Source of the DNA: Gluconobacter cerevisiae
Lineage (GTDB): Bacteria; Pseudomonadota; Alphaproteobacteria; Acetobacterales; Acetobacteraceae
Assembly: GCF_015244675.1 (NCBI RefSeq)
Contig: NZ_JABCQO010000003.1
Coordinates: 62,001 to 126,000, forward strand
DNA length: 64,000 nt
Reading direction: 5' to 3'
Both the position numbers and the translations under genes were made by a program. The notes under the pieces are model-generated. The model did not search any database. It saw only the letters and a list, made by a program, of their open reading frames with translations, and had not been told where the DNA came from. Each line of letters starts with the position of its first letter. Within the stretch, counting starts at the first letter, position 1. Below are positions 14,725-21,587 of the stretch, one piece after another.

Positions 14725-15345
14725 ATGTCTTCTCTTCCATCCCGGATCTACGCTGTTGTCGACCAGCCTCGCTGGGTAGAACGGCTTGGTGGAGCTGGCC
14801 TGCGCTTCATTGAACTGTATCTCCGGGATCTGTCTGAAGAGGACGTTCGGGCACAGGCTCTGCTGGCTCAGGAACTTGCGGCACGTTTCAATGTGTCTCT
14901 CGCGTTGAACCGCTACTGGCAGACTGCCATCGAACTGGGCTATGAATGGCTGCATCTGGGGCCGGAAGATCTTGAGACCGCTGATCTGGAGGCGATCCGG
15001 ACTGCGGGTATAAGATTTGGTATCTCGACCCATACCCGTCAGGAACTGGAAACAGCTCTGGCCTGCAAGCCGGATTACATCTCCTTTGGTCCTGTCTGGT
15101 CCACAGAACTTCGGGGCGTGAAGCTAGCGGGCAGGGGTCTGAAACAACTGGCGGAATGGCGGGAACTGTGCGGAGATGTGCCGCTGGTGGCGATCGGAGG
15201 CCTCACGGTGCCTCGGTTCGCAGAGTGCCTGGAAGCTGGGGCAGATACGGTGGCCGTGATGGGCGATTTCATCGGCCATCCGGATCCGGAAGCACAAGTC
15301 CGACGCTGGATTGACGCCACCTCCAAAGAAGCTGCCCCAACTTGA
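14725..15345 (+). CDS. ThiE/TenI-like protein with substituted active-site residues
   Basis: TIM-barrel protein of the thiamine phosphate synthase family, 206 residues from the chosen ATG. Collinear family segments are clear: YAVVD, NRYWQTAIELG, HLGPEDLE, GISTHT, ISFGPVW, LVAIGGL. The usual QLRxK segment reads ELYLR, the Mg-binding NDYW reads NRYW, and the PTxTK phosphate loop reads STELR, so ordinary thiamine phosphate synthase activity is doubtful. I chose 14725 because GGAG lies 10 bases before it; an ATG at 14716 has only a 1-base gap. No TPP-riboswitch core is seen upstream, and no other thiamine gene is nearby. Confidence 0.7.
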   Translation: MSSLPSRIYAVVDQPRWVERLGGAGLRFIELYLRDLSEEDVRAQALLAQELAARFNVSLALNRYWQTAIELGYEWLHLGPEDLETADLEAIRTAGIRFGISTHTRQELETALACKPDYISFGPVWSTELRGVKLAGRGLKQLAEWRELCGDVPLVAIGGLTVPRFAECLEAGADTVAVMGDFIGHPDPEAQVRRWIDATSKEAAPT

Positions 15346-15394
15346 AACATGCTACCTCGTCTGCGGACGATCTGATGAAAGAGCCGAGACAACG

Positions 15395-17968
15395 ATGATG
15401 GTGACAGGACTGGCAGCCGTACTCCTAGCGCTCGCGTTCCTGCTCACGCTTGTCAGCATCATTCAGCCTCTCGCGAAACGTCTTGAAATTTCAGAGGCCG
15501 TCCTGCTGGCTCTGACCGGGATCGGGCTTGGACTGATCGCGTCTCTCATTGTCCGATCTTCTGCGACTGATCTTCTGGACGGTGCGGCGGAAGCGTTGAT
15601 CTATTTTCCGGTCAACAGCGAAGCTTTCCTGCTGATTTTCCTACCCATTCTGGTTTTTCAGGGCGCGATGGCCATTGACGTGCGCCGTCTGGCCCATGAA
15701 ACGGCGACAGTCCTGCTGCTGGCTGTGGTGGCAGTCATTGTTTCCACGGCCACGATCGGCTTTGCGCTTTATCCTTTTGCCAAGCAGAGCCTTGTTGTCT
15801 GCCTGCTTTTGGGATCGATCGTCGCAACGACCGATCCGTCCGCCGTGGCGGGTATTTTCCGCGAAATCGGCGCGGCATCCCGCCTGACACGCCTCGTTGA
15901 GGGAGAGGCACTCCTGAACGATGCCGCGGCCATTTCGATCTTCTCCATCCTTCTGGCAGCCGTTACGTCCCATCACCAGATCCATCCGACCGAAGCTCTG
16001 ATAGACTTCATGACGGCCTTTATCGGGGCCATCGTGGTCGGTGTCTGTCTGGCGCGTCTGACATTGCTGCTGATTGCAGGACTGGGCGGATCGGCTGCTT
16101 CAGAGATCACACTGACGCTGGCACTTCCCTATGCCGTTTATATCCTTTGCGATGAAATGCTCGGGTTTTCGGGGGTTGTGGCAACGGCCGCGGCAGGCCT
16201 GACAGTATCCGCTTACGGGCCGTCTACCTTCCGTCCCCAGGTCTGGCGTTTTCTGAACGAGATGTGGGAACAGCTCGTTTTCTGGGCTGGTTCGCTCGTT
16301 TTCCTTCTGGCGGCCATGCTGGTCCCCCGCCTGCTGATTGGCATGACGAGGTGGGATTTCGTGCTGATCCTGATTGCAAGCGTGGCTGGTCTGATCGCGC
16401 GCTCGGCCGTGATTTTTGGTATGTTGCCCCTGCTGGCCATTACGAAGCTGTCGCCGCCTGTTCCAAACCCTTTCAAGGCAACGATGGCCTGGGGTGGCAT
16501 TCGCGGCGCCATCACGCTTGCCCTTGCACTTGCCGTGACCGAGAACCAGAGCGTTTCGAGCCCTGTGGCCCATTTTGTCGGTATCATCGCCACGGGCTTC
16601 GTTCTCATCACGCTTCTGATCAACGGTACGACGCTGCGGGCGCTGGTTCTGTTTTTCAAACTGGATCAGCTTTCCCCCATCGATCAGGCCATCCGCCAGC
16701 AGATCGTGGGAATTGGTCTGGGTGAGGTCGCAGAACGGACGCGGGAACTGTCTGAAGAACTCGGCTTCAGCGAGCAGACGCGCGCCGGCGTTATCAGCCG
16801 CCTTGAACGTCGCGCCGAGAAGGAGAGGGCGGCCAATAATTTTGAATCTGCCCTGAGTGACCGTAACCGCGTCAATATCGCTCTGATTACCATCGCCAAT
16901 CAGGAACGCTCACTGCTGTTGGATCTGTTCCGAATTCAGGGGCTATCTCGCCGTGTGATGGAAACGCTGCTGAGAACAGCTGAATCCATGGCGGATGGCG
17001 CCAGACTGGAAGGGCGTTATGGTTATGTGCGTGCCCTCAAGCGGCGTCTTCAGCCTTCACTTCGCTTTCGGATCGCGCAGGAACTGCATAGTCGCCTGCA
17101 TATCGACGAGCCTCTGACGAACTGTATGATGGAGCGGTTCGAGATGCTCATCATCGCGCATCTCGTCTCGCTTTCGCTTCAGCGCTTCGTTCGCCAGCGC
17201 ATGGAACCCACGCTTGGCCCGCGCATCACGGAAATCGTGTCTGAGGTGCTCGGCCGCCAGCGCAAACTTCTGGACGATGCGCTGGAGACCCTCCGCTTGC
17301 ATTATTCCGGCTATTCCGAAGCTCTTGAAAGCCGCATCCTGCGGCAGATCGCTCTGCGTCTCGAAGATGAAGAATACGATGCCCTTGAAGCCGACAGCCT
17401 GATTTCCGAAGAGCTTCACCGCGAACTGCATCGTGAGATCGAACGCCAGCGGGCACGGCTCGATGCACCGCTACGCTTTAATCTCAAGAGCGGTATTGAA
17501 CAGCGTCTCCGGGCTTTTCCGGCATTCAATGGCGTCCCCGACAGTGTGCTGCAAAAGCTGTCTTCCAAGGTTTCGATGCATTTCGTCTCACCGGGAGAGG
17601 TGCTGTTCAAACGCGGGCAGCGCGTTCGTGTCGTCTATGCTCAGGTGGCGGGGCTGGCAGAAGTTAATCTGGCCGAGCAAGAGATTTTGTTTGGCAGTGG
17701 AGATCTGATCGGTGCCGCTTCCGTCATCCGAAACGACACGATGCCCGGCACCGTCCGCTCCCTCCAGTTCAGCCATCTGCTGGCCATTCCGCGACCGGTT
17801 TTCGAAAAGCTGCTTCGGGATTATCCGATCGTTCAGCGCCTTATTATTCAGCGCAGCAAGAAAAGAGCGGACGGGCTTCTGATGCCTGTCACAGTCCGTA
17901 CTCTGGAGGGGGACGCCATCTCGACGGCCTCTGCCACAGAGATGCGTCATCTGGTTTCGCCTCTTTAA
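15395..17968 (+). CDS. CPA1-family Na+/H+ antiporter with cyclic-nucleotide-binding-like C-terminus
   Basis: Inner-membrane cation/proton exchanger of 857 residues. The N-terminal 400 residues hold about 12 membrane segments, with FQGAM, ATTDPSAVAGIF, the ion-binding EGEALLNDAAAI (near 168) and WGGIRGAITLALAL (near 365), all CPA1 signatures. A long helical cytoplasmic stretch follows, then a cNMP-binding-like beta-roll (about 700-825, with SPGEVLFKRGQRV). This layout resembles plant SOS1-type and long bacterial NhaP proteins. The start is ATG 15395, after the ThiE-like gene; an earlier in-frame ATG at 15311 would overlap that gene. The stop shares TTAA with the convergent POT gene. Confidence 0.88.
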   Translation: MMVTGLAAVLLALAFLLTLVSIIQPLAKRLEISEAVLLALTGIGLGLIASLIVRSSATDLLDGAAEALIYFPVNSEAFLLIFLPILVFQGAMAIDVRRLAHETATVLLLAVVAVIVSTATIGFALYPFAKQSLVVCLLLGSIVATTDPSAVAGIFREIGAASRLTRLVEGEALLNDAAAISIFSILLAAVTSHHQIHPTEALIDFMTAFIGAIVVGVCLARLTLLLIAGLGGSAASEITLTLALPYAVYILCDEMLGFSGVVATAAAGLTVSAYGPSTFRPQVWRFLNEMWEQLVFWAGSLVFLLAAMLVPRLLIGMTRWDFVLILIASVAGLIARSAVIFGMLPLLAITKLSPPVPNPFKATMAWGGIRGAITLALALAVTENQSVSSPVAHFVGIIATGFVLITLLINGTTLRALVLFFKLDQLSPIDQAIRQQIVGIGLGEVAERTRELSEELGFSEQTRAGVISRLERRAEKERAANNFESALSDRNRVNIALITIANQERSLLLDLFRIQGLSRRVMETLLRTAESMADGARLEGRYGYVRALKRRLQPSLRFRIAQELHSRLHIDEPLTNCMMERFEMLIIAHLVSLSLQRFVRQRMEPTLGPRITEIVSEVLGRQRKLLDDALETLRLHYSGYSEALESRILRQIALRLEDEEYDALEADSLISEELHRELHREIERQRARLDAPLRFNLKSGIEQRLRAFPAFNGVPDSVLQKLSSKVSMHFVSPGEVLFKRGQRVRVVYAQVAGLAEVNLAEQEILFGSGDLIGAASVIRNDTMPGTVRSLQFSHLLAIPRPVFEKLLRDYPIVQRLIIQRSKKRADGLLMPVTVRTLEGDAISTASATEMRHLVSPL

Positions 17969-19392
17969 AGAACCGGAGGCGGGGTCTCTTTTTCGGGGGC
18001 GAGCAGCTCGCGGAACCGGAGCGCGCAGAAACCAAGGATTGCCGCGGCCAGCAAAGCTGCGCCCGAGTGCAGCAGCCAGAACGAAACGTCAGAAATACGC
18101 CCAAGGAGTGTTGCGAGCTTTCCAATCAGAAGATTGGAAAGGAACAGATGCAGTGAAAAGCAGGCGACGAGGATGGTATTGACGCTGACGGGGGCAGCCC
18201 GGGAGAAAAGGGCCATTCCGATCGCATAATTCATCGAAAAGCCGATATCGTTAATAATGTGAAAGGCCAGCCCCCAAAGCAGGCTGACCTCATGCGGCCC
18301 TGGACTGATCCATGATCCCAAAGCCAGCATCAAGGGGCCGAAGGCCGCAATGAAGGTTCCCAGTGCGACTTTAGCGATTTCCGAAAGATCCTGCCGCCGT
18401 CGGGAATAGGCTTTCCAAAACCACAGGACGGCGACAGCGCACAGCGTGCTGATGAACCCATCCAGAGAAATCAGATCGCTCACCGGCATCTCGTGTCCCA
18501 GAAGGCGAAGCTGGAAATGCTCGCGCCCCCAGAGCAGATAACCATCAAAAATTTCGGAGTTCGGCACGGCTCCGACAGCCATGACCGGCACAAGTGCCAG
18601 AAGCAGCCAGACCGTCTTTTTTTCCTGTGACGTCAGGGCAGGGCGTGTGCGTTTTGAGACTTTCGCATCATGAGGCGCCGGATGGACGGTGAGGTCAGAG
18701 GCAGGAAGCCAACGGCGTCCAAAAAGATAGACTACAAGCCCGATCAGCATACCGACGCCCGCAGCCAGAAAGCCCCAGTGCCATTCGATCTGCGCCAGAC
18801 TTGCACATAGTATCGGTGACGCAATGACAGCAACCTGAAGCCCCATCATATAGATCTGATAGGCATCCGAGCGTCTCCGGTCGCCCAAGGCGTAAAGCGC
18901 TCCAACCTGCGCGCGCAGTCCTCCTGCCATACCAAGACCTGCAAGCAGGAAACCCAGCGCCAGCACGAAACTCCAGTCAAACGACAGCAGGAAATGGCCT
19001 ACCGTCATCAGAACCGCACCGAGAAGAATGGTTCGTGTCTGGCCAAGTACGCGGTCGGCAAGAAAGCCGCCAAGGAGAGGGGTGGCATAGATCAGGGCCA
19101 GAAAAAGCCCCGTAATCGCACCTGCCAGAGCCCTCGGTCCGACCGGCGCGTAGAGAAATGAAACAAATCCTTCAAGCGACGTCAGGCCAAACACATGGCC
19201 GGAGTGATCCGGCTGAAGCAGATGATCCGTCAGATAGAGCGCGAGGATGGCCTGCATGCCGTAAAGCGAAAATCCGACCCAACCTTCGGTCAGTGTTAAC
19301 ACCCACAGCCCGATAGGATGCCCCCAGAGTTCACGCTGTTTTGAGGGAACGAATGGTTCGACGACAGGGAAAGCAGGAAGGATCTCGGTCAT
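17965..19392 (-). CDS. POT/PTR-family proton-dependent transporter (MFS)
   Basis: Inner-membrane symporter of the oligopeptide (POT) family, 475 residues with about 12-14 hydrophobic segments. The family block GGFLADRVLGQTRTILLGAV (from residue 108) is well conserved. The first-helix motif, normally ExxERFxYYG, reads EGWVGFSLYG (36-45), so the second Glu and the Arg are replaced by Val and Gly. Those residues take part in proton coupling in studied members, so the substrate or mechanism may differ. TTGAGG lies 4 bases before the ATG. The upstream region contains the five-copy dyad array. Substrate: di/tripeptides by family, not proven. Confidence 0.85.
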   Translation of the reverse strand: MTEILPAFPVVEPFVPSKQRELWGHPIGLWVLTLTEGWVGFSLYGMQAILALYLTDHLLQPDHSGHVFGLTSLEGFVSFLYAPVGPRALAGAITGLFLALIYATPLLGGFLADRVLGQTRTILLGAVLMTVGHFLLSFDWSFVLALGFLLAGLGMAGGLRAQVGALYALGDRRRSDAYQIYMMGLQVAVIASPILCASLAQIEWHWGFLAAGVGMLIGLVVYLFGRRWLPASDLTVHPAPHDAKVSKRTRPALTSQEKKTVWLLLALVPVMAVGAVPNSEIFDGYLLWGREHFQLRLLGHEMPVSDLISLDGFISTLCAVAVLWFWKAYSRRRQDLSEIAKVALGTFIAAFGPLMLALGSWISPGPHEVSLLWGLAFHIINDIGFSMNYAIGMALFSRAAPVSVNTILVACFSLHLFLSNLLIGKLATLLGRISDVSFWLLHSGAALLAAAILGFCALRFRELLAPEKETPPPVL

Positions 19393-19468: not shown

Positions 19469-19500
19469 AATGGCAAAATGCCATATGGCATTTTGCCATT
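19469..19500. repeat. Perfect 32-base palindrome made of two dyad copies
   Basis: Copy 1 (TGGCAAAATGCCA, 19471-19483) and copy 2 (TGGCATTTTGCCA, 19486-19498) are reverse complements of each other, and each is itself a 5+3+5 dyad. Together with flanking bases they make a perfect palindrome from 19469 to 19500, with dyad centres 15 bases apart. It lies about 75-110 bases upstream of the POT start. It could be a high-affinity operator or a cruciform-forming site. Confidence 0.9.
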
Positions 19501-19526
19501 AGATCGTACGGACCGGAGATTGAATG

Positions 19527-19568
19527 ATGGCAAAATGCCATTGGTTTATCCAAGTGGCATTTTGCCAT
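19527..19568. repeat. Imperfect 42-base palindrome with dyad copies 3 and 4
   Basis: Copy 3 (19528-19540) and copy 4 (19555-19567) have the same 13-base dyad in opposite orientations. The linker itself pairs (TTGG with CCAA around a 5-base loop), so the whole block can fold into one long hairpin with a single bulged G at 19554. Confidence 0.88.
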
Positions 19569-19653
19569 AGGCGTGAAATTAATCATTGAACGCATAATCC
19601 AAACCCAAAAGTCCGTGAAAAAGCGCTGAAAACCTAGGATAACAGTCCGTGTA

Positions 19654-19666
19654 TGGCATTTTGCCA
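19654..19666. repeat. Fifth, isolated copy of the 13-base dyad
   Basis: TGGCATTTTGCCA, identical to copies 2 and 4, lies 99 bases (centre to centre) further toward the porin gene. Its presence as a single dyad argues that the 13-mer, not the longer palindromes, is the basic unit. Confidence 0.85.
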
Positions 19667-19952
19667 CAGAACTTGATTTTTGAACCCAGCGGCTTCAATG
19701 CGCTGGGTACGGGCTTTGATAAGGTAAAATCCGAGCGCGTATCAGAGACGGGATCGACAACACACAAATGTCGTATAAGATATATTATGCCAACTTATAT
19801 GTTCGGAAACATTAAATTTCTGACTTTTTTGTGAGAACACATCCTATTGTTGCGAAGAATGTCTTCTTTCACGCTAGGAAAAGCGTTGTAGTCCATTTTA
19901 CCGGTGAGCGCGCGTTGCGATCATCGGCATATCCGCGGGAGCGGCTGTTTAT

Positions 19953-21587
19953 ATGTCATCTATGTCCCTGTGCCGACTAAGTCTTCTGGGAAGCACATTT
20001 TGCGTTGCAATACTCTCCGCCCTCCCGAGCATCGCACGGGCCGATGATTATACGGAACTGCTCGACATTCTTCGCGCCAAGGGCAGCCTGAGCCGTTCTG
20101 AATATAACGTGCTGCTGTCACATCACCAGCATCACGCGCACCCCTCGCTGCAACGTGACGACGACGGAGCATCCCCGGCACCCGCACGCCATCGCAACCG
20201 TTATATGCGCTATGGGCCCCAGAACGAAGGCAGCAGCCTTGATGCTCCTCCGGACGTGACGACGATTGCCGCTGTATCCGCCGCGCGCCGTGCCGCCATG
20301 GAAGCCTCGGCAAGTGCACAGGACGCGCGTAATTCCCTGATGGAAGCACGCAGGACGTATAATCCGGACAGCATCGTGCGCGTGAAGCCCTATGTTGCGG
20401 GCAAAGGCGTTACGATTCAGGCGGGCCAGATCGACATCAACCTCTCCGGCTTCGTCAACGCGTACTATACCTACAACAGTCCCAGTGGTGGCCGCCCTGT
20501 CGCAGGCGGCGTTTCTACGGGCAGCAGCGGGTTCGATTCATCTTCCATCCGTAACGGCCTTCTGCCGGGCGGTCTAATCCTGAAGCTGAACACGGTACAG
20601 GAAGGCATCAAACTGGGTGCCGTCTTTGGCATGTATCCCGGCATCAACAACAACGACCCCAGCACTTTCAATGCCAATTCCGGCGGCAGTCCGGTGGGCC
20701 TTGGAACCGCTGGCCTCGATTTCCGTCAGGTTTTCATGACCGCAGGAACCGACGAACTCGGTACGGTCAAGCTGGGTCGTGATATTGCGCTGTTTGCGTC
20801 GGATGCCATTCTCAACGACGCCACGCTTCTCAGTGTCGGCAGCACCGGCAGCAATGCCAACCCGGCCAATACGTCGCTTGGCCGTATCGGCGTCGGTTAC
20901 GTCTATACCGACTGGCTCCCGCAGATCACCTATATCTCACCGAAATGGAAAGGCTTTCAGGCTTCCGTCGGCGTCATGACACCGCTTGACGAGTTCAACT
21001 TCGCCGGCGGCGGCCTTTCTGCGACAACGACCCAGCACAGTTCGCCCATGCTTCAGGGTAAAGTTACCTATGATGGCAATATCGCTGGCTTTACGACACG
21101 CTTCTGGAGCAGCTTTCTCGTTCAGCATCAGCAGAACCTGACCAGTGCGACCCTCGGCAGCAACAGCCGCAAGGGTACGACCGTCGAGGCCGGAGACGTC
21201 GGCGTCAAACTCTCGCGCGGTCCGTTTGAAGGCGTAGCTTATTATTACTACGGCAGCGGCCTCGGCACGACAGGCCTCTTCTTCGATGGGGTCTCGGCTC
21301 AGGGACGCAAGCGTGATTCAGAGGGCTACTACGTTCAGGCGGCGTACAAGATCCTGCCAAAGCTCAAGGTTGTCGGCAGTTATGGCGTCAGCAATCTTTA
21401 TCAGGCCCCCGGTGAAGACAATCCGTCAATGGTCCGCCGCAACCAGTCGGAAGTCGGAGCAATCTATTACAACCTGACAGACTGGTTCACGCTTGTGGGT
21501 GAATATGCCCATACGGAATCGGACGCCCACGGCATCGCACATGAGAGCGACCATACGATGTCGGCCGGGGCGATGATGACGTTCTGA
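19953..21587 (+). CDS. Outer-membrane porin
   Basis: Predicted beta-barrel channel of 544 residues. A signal peptide of about 30 residues ends near SIARADD. A short helix LLDILRAKGSLSRSEYNVLL follows, then a His-rich stretch (HHQHHAH near residue 51), an Ala-rich segment, and a barrel with alternating aromatic strands such as DINLSGFVNAYYTYN, GIKLGAVFGMYPG and GYYVQAAYKI. The C-terminus ends in MSAGAMMTF, the aromatic ending used for barrel assembly. GGGAG is about 11 bases before the ATG. The solute is unknown. Divergence from the POT gene across the dyad array suggests possible joint regulation. Confidence 0.85.
   Translation: MSSMSLCRLSLLGSTFCVAILSALPSIARADDYTELLDILRAKGSLSRSEYNVLLSHHQHHAHPSLQRDDDGASPAPARHRNRYMRYGPQNEGSSLDAPPDVTTIAAVSAARRAAMEASASAQDARNSLMEARRTYNPDSIVRVKPYVAGKGVTIQAGQIDINLSGFVNAYYTYNSPSGGRPVAGGVSTGSSGFDSSSIRNGLLPGGLILKLNTVQEGIKLGAVFGMYPGINNNDPSTFNANSGGSPVGLGTAGLDFRQVFMTAGTDELGTVKLGRDIALFASDAILNDATLLSVGSTGSNANPANTSLGRIGVGYVYTDWLPQITYISPKWKGFQASVGVMTPLDEFNFAGGGLSATTTQHSSPMLQGKVTYDGNIAGFTTRFWSSFLVQHQQNLTSATLGSNSRKGTTVEAGDVGVKLSRGPFEGVAYYYYGSGLGTTGLFFDGVSAQGRKRDSEGYYVQAAYKILPKLKVVGSYGVSNLYQAPGEDNPSMVRRNQSEVGAIYYNLTDWFTLVGEYAHTESDAHGIAHESDHTMSAGAMMTF

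Follow-up and report, generated by a model that had tools for sequence, protein, structure and literature searches.

In the gap of 560 bases between a POT-family transporter gene and a divergent porin-like gene of Gluconobacter cerevisiae, TGGCAAAATGCCA occurs five times without mismatch on one strand or the other (19471-19666), and the question that this locus raises is which regulator, if any, uses these copies and which gene is controlled through them. All positions without a contig name refer to the window, i.e., the stretch of 64,000 nucleotides that was analyzed. Our analyses support that the array is probably a multi-site operator through which a 130-aa XRE-family repressor, encoded by a phage-like element elsewhere in the genome, would control the POT gene. 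The features of the locus and the candidate regulator gene are as follows.

15311..17968, plus strand: antiporter-like protein (the name is a reading), used as host marker
17965..19392, minus strand: POT/PTR2-family transporter (PF00854; Pfam and comparison), the gene tied to the array across species
19469..19500, no strand: perfect 32-base palindrome from dyads 1 and 2 (computed)
19471..19483, plus strand: dyad 1, TGGCAAAATGCCA, POT-proximal (exact match; cross-species comparison)
19486..19498, minus strand: dyad 2, reverse complement of dyad 1 (exact match; cross-species comparison)
19527..19568, no strand: imperfect 42-base palindrome from dyads 3 and 4 and their linker (computed)
19528..19540, plus strand: dyad 3 (exact match; cross-species comparison)
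19555..19567, minus strand: dyad 4 (exact match; cross-species comparison)
19654..19666, minus strand: dyad 5, single (exact match; cross-species comparison)
19953..21587, plus strand: divergent porin-like protein, 544 aa (the name is a reading)
G000:C9:110108-110497, outside the window: XRE gene, 130 aa, HTH_3

The five copies are exact dyads of the form TGGCA(AAA/TTT)TGCCA. The sequence-only reading had described them as five 13-base dyads partly fused into a perfect 32-base palindrome and an imperfect 42-base palindrome, and both the coordinates and the shuffles confirmed this description; the 42-base palindrome has a mismatch at 8 of its 42 positions, i.e., four failing pairs. Five or more matches to TGGC-N5-GCCA in the gap between the POT and porin-like genes were obtained in none of 20,000 dinucleotide-preserving shuffles (mean, 0.01; maximum, 1), and TGGCANNNTGCCA occurred six times in the window compared to a shuffle mean of 0.15, a count reached in none of 100 shuffles. 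The shuffles thus rule out a chance origin of the array. The sixth TGGCANNNTGCCA of the window, at 14917 (C3:76917), is located within a coding frame.

At the scale of the 3.0-Mb genome, TGGCAWWWTGCCA has six copies, of which five are in the array. TGGCW-N3-WGCCA gave 26 matches and its control 9, while the loose pattern TGGC-N5-GCCA gave 100 matches compared to 60 for the reversed control and was discarded as too loose for genome-wide searches. Among the 26 matches, we examined the five in the array, four at the XRE locus, C4:16186, C4:21080, C8:3775, and the one at 14917 in the window; C4:16186 and C8:3775 were dropped as they are inside reading frames. The concern that random copies might be scattered over the genome therefore holds for the loose pattern, which has many chance copies, but not for sites of the exact type, which are few and associated with genes.

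The sixth genomic copy of TGGCAWWWTGCCA ends 61 bases before the start of the XRE gene, which on sequence grounds makes its product the candidate for the regulator missing from the earlier reading. The protein matches HTH_3 (PF01381) with 41.1 bits against a cut-off of 23. The Pfam scan gave only helix-turn-helix families, with no S24 self-cleavage domain; many phage repressors lack this domain. The protein scored below the NCBIfam cut-offs for RstR (34.5 of 80 bits) and DicA (24 of 101 bits), and the relatives found among solved structures were the ICEBs1 Xre regulator and P22 c2. Because each of the 26 Gluconobacter genomes contains a single match at E≤0.001 (84-100% identical), no close paralogue competes for the role. 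Of the 299 family genomes, 20 contain XRE at E≤1e-20, namely 7 from Gluconobacter and 13 from other genera; stops were seen in the alignments of G033 and G305.

The XRE gene itself is preceded by dyads at conserved positions. In all 39 genomes, the first base of an exact TGGC-N5-GCCA lies at −28 to −30 from the XRE start, and a second dyad begins at −70 to −86 in 36 of the 39 (one mismatch in G021 and G023, none found in G073). In Gluconobacter, the dyad nearer to the start overlaps TTGGCA, located ten bases before GCTAAAAA, and these two elements likely form a promoter of the Caulobacter type. Approximately 190 bases past the XRE stop, a second promoter-like element directed leftward consists of TTGACn, a 17-base spacer with a dyad, and TAATnn. 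This TTGAC...TAAT element was present in 19 of 20 genomes examined, 18 of which have an exact dyad between its two parts (the dyad is broken in G305, and the element is missing there in G237). It runs antisense through the XRE gene toward the structural genes described below (L036:6661-6760; C9 in the genome studied here), and the compared genomes share no reading frame following it. Judged from sequence, dyads that overlap a −35-like element or fill a promoter spacer have the geometry of repressor sites. We note that, upon induction, antisense transcription from the leftward element could silence the repressor.

We then compared the array across species. The exact 13-mer was found in all 26 Gluconobacter genomes searched. 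Conservation in orthologous regions, the absence of which would have spoken against the sequence-only reading, was evident from three to five dyads before the POT gene in 25 of these 26 genomes, with the reservation that exact 13-mer sites were the starting point for retrieving the POT locus in 23 of the 25 other Gluconobacter genomes (G008 and G014 being the exceptions), which biases these loci toward dyads. Three to six exact dyads were located in the 600 bases before POT in 27 of 30 XRE-positive genomes (26 Gluconobacter, G047, G050, G073, and G103) and in none of 20 XRE-negative genomes with a POT match at E≤1e-90; the POT homologues of the latter are distant (43-56% identical), and the still weaker homologues in G214 and G249 and the second copy in G073 were excluded. 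By genome, the association between dyads at POT and XRE has a Fisher p of 3.8e-11. By genus, it is 3 of 5 versus 0 of 9 (p=0.027), which is the fair figure, since genomes within a genus are non-independent. The XRE-positive genomes in which no exact dyad precedes POT are G014, G047, and G050, of which G050 has one dyad with a mismatch. G103, from another genus, has five dyads before POT, which there adjoins the same antiporter-like gene that is the convergent POT neighbor in the compared Gluconobacter loci. The number and spacing of the dyads before POT differ between species and dyads recur at other genes, in support of the proposal that the 13-mer is the unit of a multi-site operator. In G214 (genus g85), a lone dyad is located approximately 60 bases before a sucrose/levan-hydrolase-like gene (L124:5266; named by eye), and other genomes of this genus have single dyads.

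Regarding which flanking gene the array serves, the porin-like gene is present in 21 of 26 Gluconobacter genomes, and in G003, G019, G021, and G023, where it is missing, the dyads are still found at POT. We therefore regard POT as the conserved partner of the array and rejected the porin-like gene as the main target. Of the transporter and the porin named in the earlier suggestion, it is the transporter with which the array goes across species. The porin-like protein matched no Pfam, NCBIfam, or PHROG family and had no solid match among solved structures, and a structural model built from 18 relatives was of low confidence (mean pLDDT, 35). Two further sequences were noted near these genes. 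A 25-base sequence, GTTGGCATAATATATCTTATACGAC, on the minus strand at 19770-19794 has a single genomic copy allowing up to three mismatches, and a similar sequence precedes POT in the array-less G014, G047, and G050; it is possibly a second regulatory element. Moreover, G003 has an exact dyad within the metG frame (L037:4129), 2.28 kb from the array, and G019, G021, and G023 also carry a dyad at a similar distance.

Promoter-like matches in the gap between POT and the porin-like gene were not in excess over chance (1 found versus 1.3 expected). By eye, TTTACC recurs 15 to 17 bases past the POT-proximal dyad in many Gluconobacter sequences and is possibly a weak promoter element. This spacing matters for the direction of control. 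CI-type proteins can activate from sites next to a −35 element, and XRE could bind the array and activate POT (or activate POT and repress the porin-like gene), such that POT would be ON while the element is silent. In agreement with this idea, the TTGCCA end of the POT-proximal dyad could be a poor −35 element near a poor −10 element (an uncounted reading), and a weak promoter is typical of activation. Nevertheless, we consider activation unlikely: both at the leftward promoter (within the spacer) and at XRE (across a −35-like element), the dyads are placed as expected for repression, and five sites over 200 bases exceed what an activator needs. Repression of POT by XRE is the more probable reading.

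A second possibility is that a different regulator with the same dyad, e.g., one responding to peptides or amino acids, acts at POT. The three XRE-positive genomes without a POT array suggest that the regulation of POT can be uncoupled from the element. Three observations make this explanation very improbable: the 26 Gluconobacter genomes contain no second XRE-like protein at E≤0.001, the TGGC-N5-GCCA core is common to the array and the XRE gene's own promoter, and the POT genes of the 20 XRE-negative genomes have no dyad.

The inner five bases of the dyads vary, and near neighbors often co-vary as mutual complements. Specifically, 18 of 39 dyad pairs at most 45 bases apart have complementary centers compared to a mean of 6.0 in shuffles, a count reached in none of 20,000 shuffles (relatives uncorrected), and pairs with unusual centers are fully complementary in 7 of 28 near pairs versus 0 of 83 more distant pairs. 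While such complementarity would be expected if the fused palindromes formed DNA cruciforms or RNA hairpins (an attenuator or an element for transcript stability) instead of protein sites, 21 of the 28 unusual-center pairs are not fully complementary, the linkers inspected in other species are unpaired (by eye), the distances between dyads are not conserved, and dyads also occur singly at other genes, so that a structural role as the main function, which had been raised earlier, is unsupported and hardly to be expected. We take the complementarity as copying between inverted repeats rather than as a needed hairpin, and prefer this reading because most unusual pairs do not match; template switching between inverted repeats would produce such complementarity with no need for a structural role.

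If XRE is the regulator, the element that encodes it is of interest. The XRE gene abuts a cluster of approximately 20 kb of contractile-tailed phage genes on the opposite strand, beside dnaB. The cluster proteins include small and large terminase, portal, scaffold, major head, tail sheath, baseplate, and fiber proteins; no integrase or replication genes were found among the proteins scanned, a scan of the larger open reading frames. All 26 Gluconobacter genomes have XRE together with the cluster or part of it. In all 25 other Gluconobacter genomes, the cluster genes next to XRE keep their order and lie on the strand opposite to it, with all 19 genes (XRE counted) in 20 of them; among the incomplete clusters, those of G011, G016, G018 (seven genes), and G023 end at contig ends, and G010 is without one gene. 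Among the 13 other XRE-positive genomes, 12 have 11 to 18 of the 19 genes in order, with most stretches falling short of the far end, while in G237 XRE lies among other open reading frames with no cluster gene within the 12 kb examined. Stops were detected in at least one gene alignment in 9 of 25 Gluconobacter loci and 4 of 13 others, some of which may be alignment ends past a natural stop. Median dN/dS was 0.04-0.15 for 18 genes (14-25 sequences each, excluding matches with stops or <90% coverage), indicating purifying selection. For seven proteins in 20-24 Gluconobacter genomes, protein distances track those of the host antiporter-like protein (Mantel r, 0.93-0.97), and none of 2000 permutations reached the observed r for any of the seven. 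In IMG/VR, 13 contigs have a match to XRE (the XRE match alone), 11 of which are 15-22 kb. From these sequence comparisons, we read the cluster as a vertically inherited, maintained element rather than a passing prophage.

A tailocin was considered and rejected, as terminase, portal, and head protein are present in the cluster. Where the tape-measure gene would be expected (L113:13950-14980), the longest frame has approximately 258-403 codons in the compared genomes, which would predict a short tail. In G010 (L138), the cluster seems to be decaying, with stops and the missing gene; XRE and its dyads persist there, as do three dyads at POT.

A further gene, on another contig, encodes a holin-like protein of approximately 114 aa, and a dyad starts 59-66 bases before it in all 14 genomes in which it was found (the genome studied here, 12 Gluconobacter records, and Acidomonas methanolica, with L217 and L128 counted as one record). 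The search for these relatives used a peptide pattern of the protein and not the dyad, and genomes without gene or dyad may have been missed. The name is a reading, based by eye on a coiled coil and a C-terminal hydrophobic segment; Pfam gives no holin family for the protein. In 11 of 13 Gluconobacter copies, TTGATA-N17-TATATT precedes the dyad (by eye), and one copy (L207) has an in-frame stop. A terminator-like hairpin is located between the dyad and the gene (L200:7035-7094, minus strand), in relatives too, and suggests control by antitermination. Past the holin-like gene (L200:6580-6690, minus strand), a short piece resembling part of the open reading frame that follows the gene in Acidomonas (L128:5370-5852) appears by eye to be a decayed remnant. 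A dyad likewise starts 29 bases ahead of a Phage_lysozyme gene (PF00959) in G003 and G019; this gene was rejected as a general target, being confined to one clade with the gene in 3 of 26 genomes and a fourth weak match.

Together, these observations suggest the following model. The XRE protein would repress both its own promoter and the conserved promoter from which leftward transcription would enter the structural cluster; the unlinked holin-like gene would be marked by the same dyad. XRE may have gained a host target in Gluconobacter and two further genera, in the form of three to six dyads before the POT gene. We infer that XRE binds these dyads; cooperative binding would probably keep POT low until an inducing signal relieves the repressor, and the divergent porin-like gene, where present, might be kept low as well. 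Production of particles and uptake of small peptides or similar solutes would then be switched together. More tentatively, and with the odds in our view somewhat against it, Gluconobacter and relatives may carry an unnamed contractile-tailed gene transfer agent, inherited vertically genus-wide, in which XRE as master repressor would run a small, scattered regulon of the structural cluster, the unlinked lysis gene, POT, and the porin-like gene, such that cells making DNA-carrying particles would at the same time change their nutrient uptake or surface. The reasons for this link are the vertical inheritance, the genes for particles, and the presence of a lysis-like gene at an unlinked place.

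The regulator, operator, and regulon proposed here from sequence concern an industrial genus and, if the proposal is true, would clearly exemplify a domesticated phage whose switch has become part of host physiology. Two questions follow, namely, whether the genus-wide cluster encodes a gene transfer agent and for what reason the repressor of a tamed phage would govern a host transporter. In a literature search, to which subscription papers were mostly inaccessible, we recognized no report on the XRE regulator, the array operator, or the regulon.

Compared to known systems, the element resembles gene transfer agents in its phage-type head and tail genes, its inheritance with the host, and possibly its distribution over several loci; the particles described in the accessible text of PMC9662315 have non-contractile tails, while the present element has a gene for a contractile sheath. 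According to the accessible part of PMC8566455, mitomycin C causes the appearance of contractile-tailed, myovirus-like particles in G. cerinus, G. frateurii, and A. methanolica. Gluconobacter and A. methanolica (G062) carry the present element; that part of the source does not name the genes for the particles, and other prophages may make them. GOX1212 (portal), GOX1215, and GOX1222, listed as Gluconobacter phage proteins among the Acetobacteraceae signature proteins in the accessible portion of PMC2241609, may belong to the present cluster. With repressors of the CI/P22 c2 type, XRE shares HTH_3 (PF01381) and the location of dyads both at the promoter of its own gene and within a promoter spacer. 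It differs from them in that it has 130 aa with only helix-turn-helix families found, that the host transporter promoter has more sites than the element's own promoters, and that no Gluconobacter genome examined is without the element. Lambda CI acts at the host metabolic gene pckA, and the likeness is that of a prophage repressor at a host metabolic gene; here, by comparison, a nutrient transporter has three to six sites, and these are conserved genus-wide and found in two further genera. Both domesticated phages and repressors that act on host genes have precedents; the novelty would lie in their combination and in the conserved multi-site operator at a host gene.
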